A stretch of DNA of 64,000 nucleotides from Chitinophaga pinensis (lineage in GTDB: Bacteria > Bacteroidota > Bacteroidia > Chitinophagales > Chitinophagaceae), in assembly GCA_943333125.1 (NCBI GenBank), contig CALQSB010000013.1:1-64000 (forward strand), read 5' to 3'. Below are positions 2,584 to 39,471 of the stretch, in pieces. Below the pieces are notes generated by a model, which was not told the origin of the DNA, did not search any database, and worked only from the letters and a program-made list of their open reading frames with translations. Numbering within the stretch: the first letter of the stretch is position 1; each line of letters starts with the position of its first letter. A program made the position numbers and the translations under genes.

Positions 2584-3864
2584 TTATTTATGAGTAATAA
2601 AACCTTTGATAATTTCACCAAAATTATAGACGTCTTCATATCTGTTATAAAGAGGAACAGGAGCAACTCTGATGACGTTAGGTTCCCTCCAGTCGGCGAT
2701 GACACCTGAATGTATCAGTTCGTCAAAAATCTTTTTACCATCTTTCAGCATCAGCATCGAAACCTGGCAACCTCTTTCTTTTTCTTCCAAAGGTGTTATA
2801 ATTTCTATAATGTTATGATTAGTAAGATGATTGATTTCATTCAAGATGAATAATAAATAACTGCTGAGCATTTTTCCTTTGGCTACAAGATTATGCATGC
2901 CTGCTTCTGTGAAAATATCGAGCGAAGCTTTATGAGCCGACATGCTCAAAACCGGAGCATTGCTCAATTGCCATCCTTCTGCAGTAGGAATCGGATGAAA
3001 TTCCTTGTCCATTTTGAATCGGGTGTCTTTATTATGTCCCCACCATCCGGCAAGCCTGGGTAATGTTTCATCATTGATATGACGTTGATGAATAAACGCA
3101 CCTGCAACACCACCCGGACCGCTGTTCAAATATTTATAAGAACACCAGCAGGCGAAATCTACGTTCCAGTCGTGTAATTCCAAATGTATATTTCCAGCAG
3201 CATGTGCCAGATCAAAACCACATTTAGCGCCAGCTTCATGGGCGGCTTTTGTGATAGCCTGCATATCGAATATCTGGCCGCTATAATAATTGACACCACC
3301 AAAAATTACCAATGCCGTTTCATGTCCGTGTTTCTTTATAGTGTCAATGATATCCTCGTGATCGATGGTGGTTTTCCCTTTTTTAGGATGTACTTCTATG
3401 ATGGCATCATCAAGATGATAGCCATGTAATTTCACCTGCGATTGAAATGCATATTGATCGGAAGGGAATGCCTTGGCTTCGCAAATGATTTTGTATCTTT
3501 CTTTGGTTGGGCGATAAAAGCTGATCATCAGCAAATGCAAGTTTACCGTCAATTGATTCATGACTACAATTTCTTCAGGAAGTGCACCAACTATTTGTGC
3601 CAGCTGTTCTTCAAAAATTTCATGATAACTTACCCAAGGTGTACGAGCATTAAAATGACCTTCAACGCCATGCGTAGCCCAATCTTCCAACTCATCCAAC
3701 ACATAATCTTGTGTTTTTTTGGGTTGCAATCCTAGCGAATTTCCAGTGAAGTAAATGCATTCTTTGCCATTCACAATCGGTATATAAAATTGATCACGGA
3801 AATGTTTCAATGCATCCTGTTCATCAAGTTGTTGGGCGTATTCTAATGTGTTGGAAAAGTTCAT
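2584..3864 (-). CDS. kynU: Kynureninase
   Basis: A PLP enzyme of fold type I that cleaves 3-hydroxykynurenine (or kynurenine) to 3-hydroxyanthranilate (or anthranilate) plus alanine. The PLP-binding lysine is Lys244 in CWCSYKYLNSGPGG; the cofactor-ring aspartate is Asp218 in FDLAHAAGN. The 426 residues match bacterial and animal kynureninases. It lies between the RidA fusion upstream and kmo downstream (5-bp gap). The upstream gap of about 146 bp is filled by two facing family-C repeat arrays (3876-3953 and 3967-4010), so the operon may be interrupted or read through here. Confidence 0.95.
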   Translation of the reverse strand: MNFSNTLEYAQQLDEQDALKHFRDQFYIPIVNGKECIYFTGNSLGLQPKKTQDYVLDELEDWATHGVEGHFNARTPWVSYHEIFEEQLAQIVGALPEEIVVMNQLTVNLHLLMISFYRPTKERYKIICEAKAFPSDQYAFQSQVKLHGYHLDDAIIEVHPKKGKTTIDHEDIIDTIKKHGHETALVIFGGVNYYSGQIFDMQAITKAAHEAGAKCGFDLAHAAGNIHLELHDWNVDFACWCSYKYLNSGPGGVAGAFIHQRHINDETLPRLAGWWGHNKDTRFKMDKEFHPIPTAEGWQLSNAPVLSMSAHKASLDIFTEAGMHNLVAKGKMLSSYLLFILNEINHLTNHNIIEIITPLEEKERGCQVSMLMLKDGKKIFDELIHSGVIADWREPNVIRVAPVPLYNRYEDVYNFGEIIKGFITHK

Positions 3865-3875
3865 TTTTGTTTTTT

Positions 3876-4010
3876 TTGTTCAAGAGGTTCAATACGTTTA
3901 AAAGGTTCAAAAGGTTTGTGCTGTTCGAGAGGTTCAATATGTTCGTTTGAATATCACAGTCTTTCATCAACTTATTGAATCCATTGGACCTTTTCAACCT
4001 TTTGAACCTT
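3876..4010. repeat. Facing pair of GGTTCAA-type repeat arrays (family C)
   Basis: The left arm (3876-3953) is built of imperfect units such as AGAGGTTCAATACGTTTAAA and AAAGGTTCAAAAGGTT. The right arm (3967-4010) carries the complement, TTGAACCTTTT-type units, and ends exactly at the stop codon of the S23-RidA gene. The two arms can pair across a spacer of about 13 bases. Similar blocks occur at 10430, 39228 and 39430. It may act as a 3'-end structure or simply be a spreading simple repeat. Confidence 0.8.
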
Positions 4011-4937
4011 TTATTCTAAAGTTGCTATTACCTTTAATTCAATGCAAATAGGAGTCGGCAAGCTTTTTACTTCCACAGTAGTTCGGCATGCTTCCACATC
4101 TTTAAAATAATCGCCATAAATTTTATTATAAACAGGAAAATCTTTTTTCATGTTAGTCAGGTAAACGGTTACATCAACCATTTTATCCCAGCTGCTGCCA
4201 CTGGCTTCCAGCACCGCTTTTACATTAGCAAATACAGAATGGCATTCCGCTTCAATATCATACTTCACAATAGTTCCATCAGCATCCAACTCCAAACCGG
4301 GAATGGAATTATCTACAGCGCTTCGGCTACCAATGCCAGATAAGAATAATAAATTCCCGACTTTTCGGGCGTGGGGATAGGCGCCTAAAGGAGAAGCGGC
4401 ATTGGTTGTTTTTATAATTTTGTTTGGCGTTTGGTGTTTGGCGTTGTTTGTTTGGTGTTCGGTGTTTTGAGTTTGTAGTTTGGTCGCTTCACTCGTTTGA
4501 GATTTGGCGTAGCTTGTTGTTGATTGGTTTTTATTTTCAGATGATCTTTCCATAAATTTTTGGCCCTTAAAATTTGATTTGTTTAAATAGCTTATAAAAG
4601 CTGCTATTTTATTTCCGATTTTATTTACTTTTTCAATTGTCAATTCAAATAAATCATTTGAAATGTATTTATAGTCTTTACATCTGATTATTTGAGATTG
4701 TAACTCAGATGCAGAGGCTTTTGCTATGCTCAAAAACTGGATAAATTCAAGTCTACTTCCTCTTCCAAATCCTTCTGCGATATTATCCATTATAGAACCT
4801 GCAGATCTTAACATTTGATTTTTAAGTGCAAAATCTTGCGCCAAAGGTTTAAAATTTGAAAGTTCAAAAATGTCGGCACTTAAGACTCTTGATAATTGCC
4901 AAATTTCGAGATCTTCAAATTTTTTAATTGTTCCCAT
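4011..4937 (-). CDS. S23 four-helix-bundle protein fused to RidA (probable 2-aminomuconate deaminase)
   Basis: One uninterrupted 308-residue frame with two unrelated halves. Residues 1 to about 122 are a full-length S23/23S-IVP four-helix-bundle protein (FEDLEIWQLSR start, NIAEGFGRGSRLEFIQFL signature). Residues about 173-308 are a complete RidA/YjgF protein (ASPLGAYPHARKVGNLLFLSG, then CRTTVEVKSLP with the conserved substrate-binding Arg285). The Gln/Thr/Asn-rich linker 145-173 (e.g. KLQTQNTEHQTNNAKHQTPN) is the translation of the CCAAACACC repeat at 4421-4500. In kynurenine clusters the RidA member is the 2-aminomuconate deaminase, which fits here. RidA might also start separately at Met129 (4553), or at the non-ATG codons near 4419. 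The fusion is read directly; whether the cell makes it is unknown. Confidence 0.85.
   Translation of the reverse strand: MGTIKKFEDLEIWQLSRVLSADIFELSNFKPLAQDFALKNQMLRSAGSIMDNIAEGFGRGSRLEFIQFLSIAKASASELQSQIIRCKDYKYISNDLFELTIEKVNKIGNKIAAFISYLNKSNFKGQKFMERSSENKNQSTTSYAKSQTSEATKLQTQNTEHQTNNAKHQTPNKIIKTTNAASPLGAYPHARKVGNLLFLSGIGSRSAVDNSIPGLELDADGTIVKYDIEAECHSVFANVKAVLEASGSSWDKMVDVTVYLTNMKKDFPVYNKIYGDYFKDVEACRTTVEVKSLPTPICIELKVIATLE
4421..4500. repeat. CCAAACACC repeat (family B), coding, left arm
   Basis: On the plus strand it reads TGTTTGGCGTTTGGTGTTTG and continues with variants to GTTTGGTCGCTTCACTCG. It lies inside the S23-RidA reading frame and encodes the linker. The matching right-arm orientation (CCAAAC) lies at 5093-5200, on the far side of the S23 half, so the S23 module is bracketed by inverted arms. 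The string GTTTGGTCGCTTC recurs at 16575, which ties this copy to the dispersed family. Confidence 0.85.
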
Positions 4938-5092
4938 TTTGTTTTTATTTGATACGGTTTAAAATATCTAATAAAAATAAATCTCAATGAACAATTAAAC
5001 TTATTTTATCACTGAAGAAAATTCAGTTTTAAAAAATAGTACAATAGTAAACACTTAATATCAATGTCAAACCCCAACGCGCGAAGTGTCAG

Positions 5093-5200
5093 AACACCAA
5101 ACAAACAACGCCAAACACCAAACAAAAAACGCCAAACACCAAACAAAAAACGCCAAACGCCAAACACCAAACACTAAACACTAAACAATAAACCACAAAC
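5093..5200. repeat. CCAAACACC repeat array (family B), right arm
   Basis: Tandem imperfect units AACACCAAACAAACAACGCC, CCAAACACCAAACAAAAAAC and similar run to the ALDH stop codon at 5203. The same units occur at 7303-7436, 8477, 10487, 16618 and 20448. The rest of the gap (4938-5092) is AT-rich and shows no gene or clear promoter. The array lies between the ALDH gene and the S23-RidA fusion. Confidence 0.85.
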
Positions 5201-5202
5201 AT

Positions 5203-6660
5203 TTAATATTGTGTACACACATTCTTCGCCTCCGTAAAAAACTTCAACACCTCCCATCCACCTTCTCTTCCAACACCACTATTTTTAATGCCTCCAAAAG
5301 GTGTTCGTAGATCACGATGCAGCCAGCAATTGATCCACACAATTCCACTTTCAACTTTTGCTGCAACATGATTCGCCTTTGAAATATCCTGTGTCCATAT
5401 CGTACAAGCCAGACCGTAATCAGTAGCATTTGCAATTTGTAAAGCTTCTTCAACAGTGTCAAATGGTTGTAAGGTAACAACCGGTCCAAAAATTTCTTCT
5501 TTGTTTGTTCTGCAATTGGGTCCTAAATTTTCTATAATTGTTGGTTCAATGAAATAACCATTCTCACACCTTCCAGAAACTTTCACCGCATTACCACCGG
5601 ATAGTATTTTACCACCTTCTTGTTTTGCCAATTCAATACAACCCATGATTTTTTCAAAATGCGCTTTGCTTACTATCGCTCCTTGTTTTGAAGTTTCTGA
5701 TAAAGGATCACCAACGTTTAATTTTTGAGCCCAGGGTATAAAATCAGTTTTGAATTTTTCATAAACAGATGATTCAATCAATATCCTACTGCTGCATAAA
5801 CAAATTTGTCCCTGATTACCGAATGATGAACGAATCGTAGTAAACAACATTTTCTTCCAGTCGCAGTCTGCAAAAATGATGGAAGGATTTTTACCTCCCA
5901 GTTCCAAAGACAACTTTTTAAACATTGGCGCAGCTATAGAAGCAATCTGTGCTCCGGCTCTTGTACTTCCTGTAAATGAAATTGCTTTAATCGAAGGGTG
6001 TTTCACAATCGCCTCGCCACAATTTGGTCCGTCGCCATGTATGATGTTTAAAACGCCATCAGGAAGTCCAGCTGCTGCGGAAATCTTAGCCAGTAAATAA
6101 GCTGTTACCGGAGTAACTTCTGATGGTTTGGCAATCACGCAATTTCCAGCAGCAAGAGCCGGTGCGATTTTCCAGGTGAAAAGATATAATGGAAGATTCC
6201 AGGGAGATATACAGCCTACAACACCTATTGGTTGACGTAAGGTAAAGTTAATGGCGTTGTTATCCATAGCATGACTCTCGGAAGAAAAATTCATAATTGC
6301 AGTAGCAAAAAATCTGAAATTGGACGAAGCCCTCGGAATGTCTACTTCTTTACTCAGCCAAAGCGGTTTGCCATTGTCATTGGCTTCAGCAAGAGCTAGT
6401 GCATCATGATTTTCATCAATTAAATCAGCAATACGATTCAAAATAGAAAATCTTTTTTCTGCGGAAGTTGTTGACCAGCCAATAAATGCTTTCTTAGCTG
6501 CTGTCACAGCGTTTTCTACATCCGAGTGATTACTGTTAGGAATGCTTCCATAAACTTCGCCAGTAGCCGGATTGATATTGTCAAAATAAGAATTATTGGA
6601 GGGCTTAACAAACACACCATCAATAAAATTTTCGAGCTTTTTGGGTATTTCCAATTGCAT
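5203..6660 (-). CDS. Aldehyde dehydrogenase, probable 2-aminomuconate 6-semialdehyde dehydrogenase
   Basis: A 485-residue NAD(P)-dependent aldehyde dehydrogenase. The visible active-site parts are SPWNLP with Asn155, the FTGSTRAG nucleotide-binding loop near 229-236, the general base Glu253 in LELGGKNPS, and the nucleophile Cys287 in GNQGQICLCS. The superfamily is certain. The substrate is inferred: between ACMSD, which yields 2-aminomuconate semialdehyde, and a RidA-family deaminase, oxidation to 2-aminomuconate is the missing step, and the sequence resembles the AmnC/ALDH8A1 type. It is the first gene of the minus arm, 116 bp from divergent haaO, so both arms probably share a control region. 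Confidence 0.88.
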   Translation of the reverse strand: MQLEIPKKLENFIDGVFVKPSNNSYFDNINPATGEVYGSIPNSNHSDVENAVTAAKKAFIGWSTTSAEKRFSILNRIADLIDENHDALALAEANDNGKPLWLSKEVDIPRASSNFRFFATAIMNFSSESHAMDNNAINFTLRQPIGVVGCISPWNLPLYLFTWKIAPALAAGNCVIAKPSEVTPVTAYLLAKISAAAGLPDGVLNIIHGDGPNCGEAIVKHPSIKAISFTGSTRAGAQIASIAAPMFKKLSLELGGKNPSIIFADCDWKKMLFTTIRSSFGNQGQICLCSSRILIESSVYEKFKTDFIPWAQKLNVGDPLSETSKQGAIVSKAHFEKIMGCIELAKQEGGKILSGGNAVKVSGRCENGYFIEPTIIENLGPNCRTNKEEIFGPVVTLQPFDTVEEALQIANATDYGLACTIWTQDISKANHVAAKVESGIVWINCWLHRDLRTPFGGIKNSGVGREGGWEVLKFFTEAKNVCTQY

Positions 6661-6776
6661 GCGCTAAAGGTAAATAAATTTCGGGCTGAATTTTGTCCTT
6701 TTTTATTGAATTTCATTTGAAAATAAATAACTTTTTTGGTAAAAAAAATTACCTTTCAAGTCTAAAAAATAAAATC

Positions 6777-7301
6777 ATGGCAATTTCAGCTCCTTTCAAC
6801 CTTAAAAAATGGATTGATGAAAATAGAAGTTTGTTGAAGCCCCCTGTTGGCAATCAGTGTATTTATAAAGATGCGGAGAATTTTATCGTAATGGTTGTAG
6901 GTGGACCCAACTCTCGGAAAGATTATCATTTTAATGAGAGCGAAGAATTATATTATCAGGTAGAGGGAGATATTGTGGTAAAAATTATTGATAATGGGAT
7001 TCCAAGAGATATACAAATCAATGAAGGAGATATTTTTTTATTACCTCCCAAAACACCGCATTCTCCACAAAGAGGTCCGGGTACGGTTGGACTGGTAATT
7101 GAAAAAGTAAGAGAAACTGAAGAAGATGGATTTCTTTGGTATTGCGAAAACTGTGGTGAAAAATTATATGAACAACATTTACATGTTTCTGATATTGTAA
7201 AACAATTGCCACCAGTAATGGAAGGTTTTTATTCAGATGAACACAAACGAACTTGTAGTAAATGCGGGTCGGTGATGGCGCCGCCGGTGAGGAAAGGTTA
7301 A
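6777..7301 (+). CDS. haaO: 3-hydroxyanthranilate 3,4-dioxygenase
   Basis: A cupin ring-cleaving dioxygenase that opens 3-hydroxyanthranilate to 2-amino-3-carboxymuconate semialdehyde. Counting from the ATG at 6777 (MAISAPFNLKKW) gives 174 residues, the usual length of the bacterial enzyme; upstream codons in frame look like non-coding sequence. Fe(II) ligands His51, Glu57 and His95 are present (DYHFNESEELYYQ and PKTPHSPQRGP). The C-terminal rubredoxin-like site has two CxxC pairs at 123/126 and 160/163, typical of bacterial and fungal members. It opens the plus arm and is followed by ACMSD. Confidence 0.96.
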   Translation: MAISAPFNLKKWIDENRSLLKPPVGNQCIYKDAENFIVMVVGGPNSRKDYHFNESEELYYQVEGDIVVKIIDNGIPRDIQINEGDIFLLPPKTPHSPQRGPGTVGLVIEKVRETEEDGFLWYCENCGEKLYEQHLHVSDIVKQLPPVMEGFYSDEHKRTCSKCGSVMAPPVRKG

Positions 7302-7302
7302 T

Positions 7303-7436
7303 ATGTTTGGTGTTTGGTGTTTGGCGTTGTTTTGTTAAGTATTTAATTCTAAACGCCAAACAAGTGCAACACCAAACGCCAACCCCAAACAAGCGAAGCA
7401 CAACCCCAAACACCAAACACCAAACGCCAAACATTG
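7303..7436. repeat. Family-B inverted repeat pair
   Basis: The left arm (about 7303-7335) reads GTTTGGTGTTTGGTGTTTGG on the plus strand; the right arm (7363-7436) reads CCAAACACCAAACACCAAAC and related units. They are separated by about 27 AT-rich bases, so the block between haaO and ACMSD can form a long imperfect hairpin. Short reading frames here only translate the repeat and are not genes. Confidence 0.85.
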
Positions 7437-7443
7437 TATTTTC

Positions 7444-8439
7444 ATGAAAATCGACATCCACACACACATCATGCCTTCTTCAATGCCCAATTGGGTGAAG
7501 AGGTTTGGTTATGGTGATTTTATTCATCTCGAACACCGCAATTGCAAGGCCTGCATGATGAAAGGGGATAAATTGTTCAGAGAAGTGGAAGAAAATTGTT
7601 ACGATGAAAAGATCAGGATAAAGGAAATGAAAGAAACCAAGGTCGATGTGCAGGTATTGTCAACAATCCCGGTTTTATTTAATTATTGGGCGAAGCCTGA
7701 AGATGGTATGGAGACATCCCGTTTTTTCAATGATCATATAGCTGAAACTGTTGTAAAGAAACCGAAAAGTTTTATTGGCATTGGCACCGTTCCTTTGCAG
7801 GATATTGATTTAGCGATTAAAGAAATGGAACGTTGTGTGAATGAATTGAAAATGCCAGGTTTGGAGATAGGAAGTAACATCAATGGTAAAAATTTAGGCG
7901 ACGAAATCTTTTTTCCATTCTATAAAAGAGCCGAAGAATTAGGTTGTGCTTTATTTGTTCATCCATGGGAAATGATGGGAGAGCAGCAGATGCAAAAATA
8001 TTGGCTGCCCTGGTTGGTAGGCATGCCTGCTGAAACATCACGTGCGATTTGTTCAATGATTTTTTCTGGTGTATTTGAAAAATTTCCCAGACTAAGAGTA
8101 GCGTTTGCACATGGGGGAGGTTCCTTCCCGTTAACGATTGGCAGGATTGAACATGGGTTTAATGTACGCCCTGATTTGGTAGCAATAGATAATCCTTCCA
8201 ATCCAAGAAATTATATCGGTAAATTCTGGATTGATAGCCTCGTTCATGATGAAAAAGCCATGAAATATATTATAGATGTAATGGGCGAAGATGCGATATG
8301 TCTTGGCAGCGATTATCCGTTTCCTTTAGGTGAACATCATCCGGGTTCCTTGCTGGAAAAAATGAAAATAAAAAAAGAAATCCGAGAAAAAATAATGTTT
8401 AAAAATGCATTGGATTGGCTGGATCTGGAGCCGGAATAA
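7444..8439 (+). CDS. 2-amino-3-carboxymuconate-6-semialdehyde decarboxylase (ACMSD)
   Basis: A metal-dependent amidohydrolase-fold decarboxylase that diverts ACMS from quinolinate formation towards 2-aminomuconate semialdehyde. Zinc ligands fit the family at a constant offset: His6 and His8 (DIHTHIMP), His173 (FVHPWEMMG), His223 (FAHGGGSFP) and Asp290 (LGSDYPFP). The 331 residues match bacterial ACMSD. It follows haaO across the family-B repeat block, so the two are probably one transcription unit. Presence of ACMSD indicates a catabolic rather than NAD-making branch. Confidence 0.95.
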   Translation: MKIDIHTHIMPSSMPNWVKRFGYGDFIHLEHRNCKACMMKGDKLFREVEENCYDEKIRIKEMKETKVDVQVLSTIPVLFNYWAKPEDGMETSRFFNDHIAETVVKKPKSFIGIGTVPLQDIDLAIKEMERCVNELKMPGLEIGSNINGKNLGDEIFFPFYKRAEELGCALFVHPWEMMGEQQMQKYWLPWLVGMPAETSRAICSMIFSGVFEKFPRLRVAFAHGGGSFPLTIGRIEHGFNVRPDLVAIDNPSNPRNYIGKFWIDSLVHDEKAMKYIIDVMGEDAICLGSDYPFPLGEHHPGSLLEKMKIKKEIREKIMFKNALDWLDLEPE

Positions 8440-10367: not shown

Positions 10368-10517
10368 TTGTGGTTTGTAGTTTATGGTTCGTTGGTTTAA
10401 AAATTGAAGTAGCTTGAATAATTTGATAATTTGAAACTATTAATCTTTTGAACTTATTGAACATCTGGAACCTTTTGAACAAAACAGCCACAAACACCAA
10501 ACAATAAACCACAAAAA
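10368..10517. repeat. Nested family-B and family-C repeats
   Basis: A family-B left arm (10368-10400, GTTTGTGGTTTGTAGTTTAT) and right arm (10487-10517, CACAAACACCAAACAATAAA) enclose a family-C stretch (about 10430-10485, TTGAACTTATTGAAC and GGAACCTTTTGAAC). The block fills the whole gap between the exported protein and aroK. It shows that both repeat types insert or grow at the same sites. Confidence 0.75.
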
Positions 10518-39395: not shown

Positions 39396-39471
39396 CATTT
39401 TATATGAAGGTTTTTGATATTTAGAGATAACCTTTTAAACTTATTGAACCTTTTAAACCTCTTGAACAATT

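Follow-up and report, generated by a model that had tools for sequence, protein, structure and literature searches.

An S23 gene between inverted heptamer arrays is joined in frame to RidA in a kynurenine locus of Chitinophaga

The window analysed here is a stretch of 64,000 nucleotides (nt) of Chitinophaga pinensis (assembly GCA_943333125.1, contig CALQSB010000013.1, positions 1 to 64,000). Its genome is called G000; the other G numbers are the genomes compared with it, and L numbers are loci. A single frame on the minus strand (4937-4011) begins with ATG and encodes 308 amino acids, with an S23 protein as the N-terminal half and a RidA protein as the C-terminal half. The genes beside this fusion encode an aldehyde dehydrogenase (ALDH), kynureninase (KynU), a KMO-like FAD enzyme, 3-HAO, and an ACMSD-like amidohydrolase. 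The ALDH gene of this kynurenine locus (5203..6660, minus strand, PF00171) is the upstream neighbour at the insertion site, and the KynU gene (2584..3864, minus strand, PF22580 and PF00266) lies downstream. The gene order ALDH-RidA-KynU-KMO was also found in relatives.

The S23 half (4563..4937, minus strand, residues 1-125) is a four-helix bundle of the 23S rRNA intervening sequence protein family. PF05635 matched residues 8-112 with 108 bits against a Pfam cut-off of 33.8, and the NCBIfam model TIGR02436 (four helix bundle protein) scored 101.3 against a cut-off of 24. AlphaFold predicted helices at residues 11-26, 36-58, 62-88, and 94-120, with block means of the predicted local distance difference test (pLDDT) of 93-98 over residues 11-120. 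The closest solved relative is 2gsc, which has five chains, as does 2rld, another solved S23 relative. The RidA half (4011..4421, minus strand, residues 173-308 and the stop) matched PF01042 over residues 178-306 (81.3 bits, cut-off 27.3), and TIGR00004 (Rid proteins) matched below its cut-off (91.6 against 106.25). The closest of 47 solved sequences is 6izh, the 2-aminomuconate deaminase AmnE (E 5e-23). A RidA-like fold was predicted with less confidence (block means of 47-77 from residue 191 onward), and only 4 of the 38 rows of the input alignment covered this half; the pLDDT was below 50 at residues 129-187, which corresponds to a disordered stretch. Foldseek placed the RidA half with the solved YabJ and AmnE structures and the S23 half with 2gsc. 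An earlier note on this DNA, made from its letters alone, had read one frame joining an S23-type protein to RidA, and the matches to PF05635 and PF01042 above their cut-offs confirm this. The same note took RidA of kynurenine loci to be 2-aminomuconate deaminase, and the nearest relative AmnE and the pathway genes alongside support this assignment for the RidA half.

The S23 gene lies between two inverted heptamer arrays. The 5' arm (5093..5201, minus strand) follows directly after the ALDH stop and is a tandem repeat that reads (TGTTTGG)n in gene orientation. A leader (4938..5092, minus strand) connects it to the S23 start, and 144 of the last 150 nt before this start are identical in G107. 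On the other side, an array of period 7 with the unit CCAAACA on the coding strand occupies 4421-4484, and the 5' arm is the inverted copy of it. The linker from S23 residue 125 to RidA residue 173 (4422..4562, minus strand, residues 126-172, 141 nt) has 47 residues; approximately 21 of them (4421-4484) are the array found by a tandem-repeat program, so that the C-terminal part of the linker is the translated 3' arm (CCAAACA)n. The earlier view of the linker as a translated repeat is right for this C-terminal part, but the unit is CCAAACA rather than CCAAACACC, and the linker has 47 residues rather than 29. The inverted array at 5093-5201 had been missed. The predicted fold of the gene strand, calculated without shuffles, had 81 pairs between 5085-5204 and 4400-4510, running from 5195:4403 to 5098:4499, and the duplex energy of the window flanks was 10 standard deviations below that of 60 shuffles (z -10). 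The inserted unit is a hairpin element and not a bare gene, and its 3' arm became the linker.

The search for other S23-RidA fusions, which the earlier note had proposed, was made in 93 same-genus genomes. RidA was found at E <= 1e-30 in 55 of them, and the 54 loci besides the window were fetched. In 15 of the 55 loci, the frame runs without interruption from S23 into RidA, namely in G000, G107, G099, and G029 (clade A), G105, G111, G110, and G093 (clade B), G008, G078, G073, G002, and G006 (clade C), and also G097 and G064; one more, G094, has an in-frame TAG, and G011 carries an S23 damaged by frameshifts and a deletion. The identity to the window protein was 85-95% for the fusions of G107, G099, and G029, and 69-71% for those of G105, G111, G110, and G093. 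Because separate assemblies carry the same fusion, the 308-residue protein is a genuine chimera and not the result of chance or of one assembly error. The RidA half of G006 runs into an assembly gap; beyond this gap, the same locus (L067, 2443-3605) has a second S23 gene, which may be a scaffold artefact. In the remaining 38 loci, what look by eye like S23 remnants are a tail in G068 and a head in G027, with a further tail possible in each of G103 and G114. G101, closely related to G000, has a free RidA, no S23, and a different hairpin at the site, a CACAAAGGC-type inverted array in the ALDH-RidA gap.

No fusion was found outside the genus among 396 genomes of the order (RidA E <= 1e-55) or 395 genomes of the phylum (E <= 1e-40), samples that both contain some genus members, and within them the fusion is confined to one genus. 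Long-frame RidA matches outside the genus (G278, G844, G502, G787, G752, and G172) were considered as hidden fusions and rejected, as their DNA holds no S23 domain. The new architecture suggested for the window is real and recurrent in the genus, and a single recent insertion in this strain is ruled out, since the genus search found the pattern genus-wide at one site. In a locus tree from which S23 and RidA were excluded, 10 changes of S23 state were needed, at least 7 of them forced by well-supported branches, whereas in the S23 tree a single clade of fused S23s was not rejected (approximately unbiased test, p 0.43). Either one ancestral fusion followed by losses or several gains may have produced this distribution.

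The ATG at the usual start position of free RidA is absent in all 16 S23-bearing loci. Between approximately S23 residue 121 and RidA, an in-frame ATG at the Met129 position is present in 10 of these loci, and only GTG in two (G078 and G073). In the other four (G008, G002, G006, and G064), RidA seems to depend on the start codon of S23, because no in-frame ATG, GTG, or TTG follows the S23 domain before RidA begins. In the window, this internal ATG (4551..4553, minus strand) is a possible start of a RidA of 180 residues, and an equivalent ATG stands before RidA in G094 and G011, two loci with a broken S23 and an undamaged RidA. The linker has 12 distinct lengths (39-141 nt) in the 16 genomes, and all are multiples of 3, though the unit has 7 nt. 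A comparison of G000 with G107 gave a difference of 49 nt (7 units) for the 5' arm region but of 21 nt (3 units) for the linker. G027 retains the S23 ATG and 14 codons, apparently after a deletion, and the stop of this remnant overlaps the ridA ATG (by eye); such an arrangement would fit a ridA that uses the initiation region of S23.

The two halves have separate histories. Between G000 and G107, the synonymous differences in S23, RidA, KynU, and KMO were 3/73, 56/91, 156/253, and 162/270, respectively, and the proportion of synonymous differences (pS) was 0.04 for S23 versus 0.61 for RidA. The near-identical tract begins near the 3' end of ALDH and ends at the linker array. Between G008 and G078, the synonymous differences were 1/80 in S23 versus 18/87 in RidA (pS 0.01 versus 0.21). 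G029 is close to G094 in RidA (pS 0.25) and KynU (0.32), whereas its S23 is far from that of G094 (0.73) and near that of G000 (0.33). The contrast was weaker for G105 and G094, with a pS of 0.36, 0.64, and 0.44 for S23, RidA, and ALDH, respectively. These substitution patterns show that the S23 half moves independently of its flanking genes, and ordinary recombination could be the carrier. Purifying selection, measured as the ratio of nonsynonymous to synonymous rates (dN/dS), was seen on both halves. For S23, the ratio was 0.05-0.15 in 12 of 17 pairs, two of which include G099, whose start is lost. In the other five pairs, G000-G107 had no amino-acid change, two were saturated, G008-G078 gave 0.55 on only 3 changes, and G105-G094 gave 0.54, being misaligned at the broken locus.

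S23 genes in hairpins are not limited to this site. We surveyed the best 80 of at least 563 confirmed relatives in a scan of public genomes, which is a best-match sample. With 150-nt flanks, the inverted arms of 66 of 77 scorable S23 loci from across Bacteroidota scored above the 95th percentile set by 170 neighbouring genes (p 9e-29, Mann-Whitney); flanks of 100 nt and 200 nt gave 63 of 77 and 60 of 73. These control genes were given equal flank lengths, an earlier run having had 60 extra downstream bases on the S23 side. They replaced a first null made of mismatched flanks of other S23 loci, which was poor because flanks of S23 loci share similar repeats. Both neighbours were co-directional for 64 of 69 S23 genes, the median distances to co-directional neighbours being 58 and 45 nt (earlier run). 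Of 73 arms, the 57 picked for complementarity and length had a lag-7 identity of 0.705 versus 0.352 when shuffled, and the best period was 7 in 54 of the 57; unselected 100-nt upstream flanks gave 0.387 versus 0.305 in control genes. The arm units vary by locus (GTTTAAA, GTTTCAG, ATTCAAA, and others), and the two arms of one locus tend toward reverse complements of the locus-specific unit. In 36 further loci (33 from the genus and 3 from other families; 16 at RidA), the arm duplex had z < -2 in 26. The S23 frame ended at 126-157 amino acids in 69 of 73 loci, the rest being two RidA fusions and two short frames; only these two fusions run on into the following gene.

The arm unit was also compared with arrays dispersed in 24 genomes. 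GTTTGG-type arrays, with one mismatch allowed, numbered 37-261 in nine of them (G000, G107, G099, G029, G101, G105, G094, G111, and G110). Eight of the nine carry an S23-RidA locus of clade A or B; G101 has arrays and no S23 at the site. Elsewhere, there were 0-1 in the five clade C genomes, 8 in G097, 4 in G074, and 0 in G093 and others. A reversed control pattern gave 1-125 matches in the nine genomes, above GTTTGG in G110 (125 versus 37) and near it in G111 (62 versus 79); specificity is weak in these two, because the reversed control is itself a GTTTG-rich heptamer. The five clade C genomes had 2-15 GTTTCT-type matches each, and the other genomes 0-3. In clades A and C, the arm unit tracks the dispersed arrays of its genome; in part of clade B, the match is less clear.

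The window holds other repeats. An S23-less hairpin with the heptamer type of the fusion arms (7302..7443, plus strand; inverted heptamer matches 7304-7324 and 7406-7433) lies between 3-HAO and the amidohydrolase. A comparison of 3800-7600 with known RNA families produced nothing above threshold; of five weaker matches, four were to plant-type microRNA models at the hairpin of approximately 7282-7450. Downstream of the fusion, positions 3878-4010 contain a second short repeat family (GTTCAAAAG / AACCTTTTGAAC type), which recurs at 10440-10470 and 39429-39467, and units similar to it make up the S23 arms in the relatives L150 and L153. A tandem repeat of 117 nt (2.6 copies, 95%) occupies positions 1-309.

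In this study, we believe, with a probability of roughly 0.72, that an S23 element like an intervening sequence (IVS), exchanged horizontally, captured the initiation of ridA, and that the 308-residue chimera is the result. The observations behind this are the anatomy of the locus, the recurrence in one genus, the separate histories, the frame kept through changes of linker length, and the broken S23s in some loci. The element, with inverted heptamer arrays and the S23 gene in the loop, would have settled at the ALDH/ridA junction. Its S23 frame, without a stop, would read through the 3' arm into ridA, which lacks a start codon in the normal position. Ribosomes would start at S23 and make S23-linker-RidA, so that ridA expression would rest on the S23 initiation region; where the internal Met is present, free RidA could also be made. 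The arms would pair in the operon mRNA and, like those of rRNA IVSs, might be cut by RNase III, and the uncut mRNA would therefore be the template for the fusion. Most likely, the S23 half adds a four-helix-bundle head, probably pentameric, without improving the deaminase, and would be retained by the dependence of ridA, i.e., by entrenchment of a selfish element and not by a new enzymatic function.

Several points weigh against this reading. S23 is broken and RidA intact in G094 (the in-frame TAG lies inside S23), in G011 (frameshifts and a deletion), and in G099 (start codon replaced). Met129 could start a free RidA in the window genome, so that the fusion would not be compulsory there. S23 was broken in 3 of 13 loci with an internal start versus 0 of 4 without one, which is not significant (Fisher p 0.54). 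Ten of the 36 further loci did not have z < -2 (L147, L154, L157, L160, L161, L162, and the fusion loci of G002, G006, G097, and G064), and in 3 of 35 swaps the 3' flank of another locus paired with the window 5' flank as strongly as its own. G008 and G073 gave no sign of separate movement (pS 0.65 versus 0.68). Purifying selection on S23 could signal a function of the S23 half, contrary to pure entrenchment. The idea of the earlier note that an S23 insertion destroyed the ridA start and now supplies it thus holds in part. S23 does lie between ALDH and ridA, the usual ATG is gone in all 16 loci, and four have no internal start; but the pattern is genus-wide, the unit is a hairpin element instead of a bare gene, and the possible start at Met129 and the three broken S23s count against a compulsory fusion in the window genome. 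That note had also named a sister strain with a stop between the halves as evidence against the fusion; G094 comes near to this, but its TAG is inside S23.

Under another explanation, which we consider possible but clearly doubtful, there are two proteins in one frame: S23 is an accidental leader, RidA starts from Met129, and the fusion is either absent as a product or of no importance. The ATG at the S23 tail in 10 of 16 loci and the three broken S23s beside an intact RidA agree with it, as does G068, where RidA begins at this Met behind what looks by eye like a relic tail, an arrangement that G103 and G114 may have as well. However, the four loci without an internal start keep S23 open, the linker stays in frame with a unit of mostly 7 nt, and the dN/dS of S23 is low in most pairs.

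It is rather unlikely that a vertically inherited S23 gene, with heptamers made by polymerase slippage, was fused by a neutral loss of its stop codon and with no mobile element involved. Heptamer repeats are common in bacteria, and slippage has been named as their source (Mrazek 2007, cited in the part of PMC4679880 consulted), a single clade of fused S23s is not rejected, and the most similar S23s are mostly at a common site. Slippage alone does not explain why the arms tend to be reverse complements of a locus-specific unit. S23 is also exchanged among species without RidA, and S23s of 86% identity occupy two different suf junctions.

A functional new architecture, in which S23 was recruited to alter the assembly or location of RidA, for example as a pentameric head joining RidA trimers, appears improbable. 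The five chains of 2gsc and 2rld, the confidently predicted S23 fold beside a less confident RidA half and a disordered linker, and the purifying selection on both halves agree with it. RidA proteins are trimeric and AmnE is hexameric (PMC6742747, the part available), and S23 of Xanthomonas is a pentamer (PMC4990558, the part available); because of these subunit numbers, it may be speculated that S23-RidA forms large assemblies. However, the presence of S23 is patchy on the locus tree, the close relative G101 manages without it, and the S23 half is repeatedly swapped and broken, unlike a selected enzyme domain. Finally, it is very improbable that a metagenome-bin chimera of co-occurring species accounts for the 99% identical S23 tract of G000 and G107, for although many genomes are fragmented assemblies and several are metagenome-assembled genomes, the same contrast appears in pairs of different depth (G000-G099, G000-G029, and G008-G078) and the tract stops at the arm.

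Beyond RidA, S23 elements recur at operon junctions with homologous neighbours on both sides, and at two suf junctions they do so in many Bacteroidota. In 100 loci compared, two pairs of which are duplicates of a genome, such sites included sufB|sufC (11 loci: L159, L161, L176, L183, L191, L200, L203, L206, L217, L223, and L225), sufC|sufD (13 loci: L182, L189, L207, L210, L214, L224, L232, L233, L236, L237, L239, L244, and L247), and purE (4 loci). The Suf, ABC, and AIRC domains were checked on L225, L232, and L145 only, and we take the junction genes to be sufB, sufC, and sufD on that basis. The S23s of L225 and L232 are 86% identical, yet they lie at sufB|sufC and sufC|sufD, respectively. 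In the purE loci (L145, L146, L193, and L202), PurE begins at the 3' end of the S23 gene with a Thr/Gln/Asn-rich N-terminus such as MSEQQTTNNKPQT, and in L145 and L146 this stretch is the translated heptamer arm. A four helix bundle gene of Flavobacterium columnare between guanylate kinase and nicotinic acid mononucleotide adenylyltransferase is listed as a phage element in Table 5 of PMC5524665, and the position given there fits the operon-junction pattern.

We tentatively suggest that S23 hairpins may be a general mobile class of heptamer-armed RNA hairpins at operon junctions of Bacteroidota, of which the rRNA IVS would be a special case. S23 might bind its own arms and promote their spread and homing, and a frame that reads through would hijack the start of the next gene, with S23-RidA as an addicted fusion and, more weakly, PurE as a second case, its N-terminus being the translated arm. 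S23 proteins are widespread and their structures have been solved, and the parts of the cited literature consulted give them no known function. Matched heptamer hairpins at operon junctions tie the S23 copies at protein-gene junctions to the rRNA IVSs and offer a testable frame, in which the hairpins would be RNase III substrates and S23 a candidate arm-binding protein. In the RidA fusion, one can see how an element that takes control of a host gene's start codon could come to resist loss. Loci with and without an internal start, and with intact and broken S23, are natural comparisons for measuring this dependence.

Several known systems resemble the window element in part. REPIN/RAYT-type systems offer one comparison, since a few S23 genes (3 in G000, 1 in G029) stand beside many dispersed arrays of the matching unit; unlike in those systems, the S23-linked arrays are tandem heptamers and not repetitive extragenic palindromes, S23 is not known to have nuclease activity, and the link consists of matching units alone. 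Avd, an accessory protein of diversity-generating retroelements, resembles PF05635 (PMC10053308, in the part available). Such a retroelement was considered and rejected, as the RVT_1 (PF00078) reverse transcriptase was absent in G000 and four more of the eight genomes searched and present in three; template and variable repeats were not searched for. The S23 half is like TIGR02436/PF05635 proteins in both curated scores and in the 2gsc fold but has no stop after the fourth helix, and the RidA half is like RidA/AmnE (6izh) in sequence and kynurenine context but has an N-terminal extension of 172 residues and no usual start. The Rid fusions named in the part of PMC4433059 consulted are tandem Rid domains. 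Heptamer repeats have been described, Bacteroidetes included, in PMC4679880, whose text, as far as available, mentions neither 'S23' nor 'intervening sequence'. In the titles and abstracts listed, with most subscription papers and preprints outside the scope, no report of S23 and RidA together and none of S23 elements with heptamer arms between protein genes was found.

The closest system is the IVS of 23S rRNA in Coxiella, Leptospira, and Brucella, which, in the part of PMC4990558 consulted, has an S23 ORF (open reading frame) within an inverted-repeat stem loop, as the window element does. In Coxiella, the IVS carries an S23p ORF, RNase III cuts its stem, and the ORF is preceded by two or three GACAGAT heptamers (PMC4990558), so that tandem heptamers lie just upstream of the S23 start in both. 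The rRNA IVS has been proposed to be selfish and horizontally acquired, and its ORF decays in some strains (PMC4990558), as S23 does here. Complementary ends that form a stem were predicted for the window element too, as the 81 pairs and the z of -10 indicate, and it is not inserted in an rRNA gene. Unlike the rRNA IVS, it lies between protein genes of an operon, its arms have another heptamer unit, and its ORF is fused to the next gene. We therefore regard the window element, by analogy, as IVS-like and not as an rRNA IVS, because stem, ORF, and heptamers are common to both but the site is outside rRNA.
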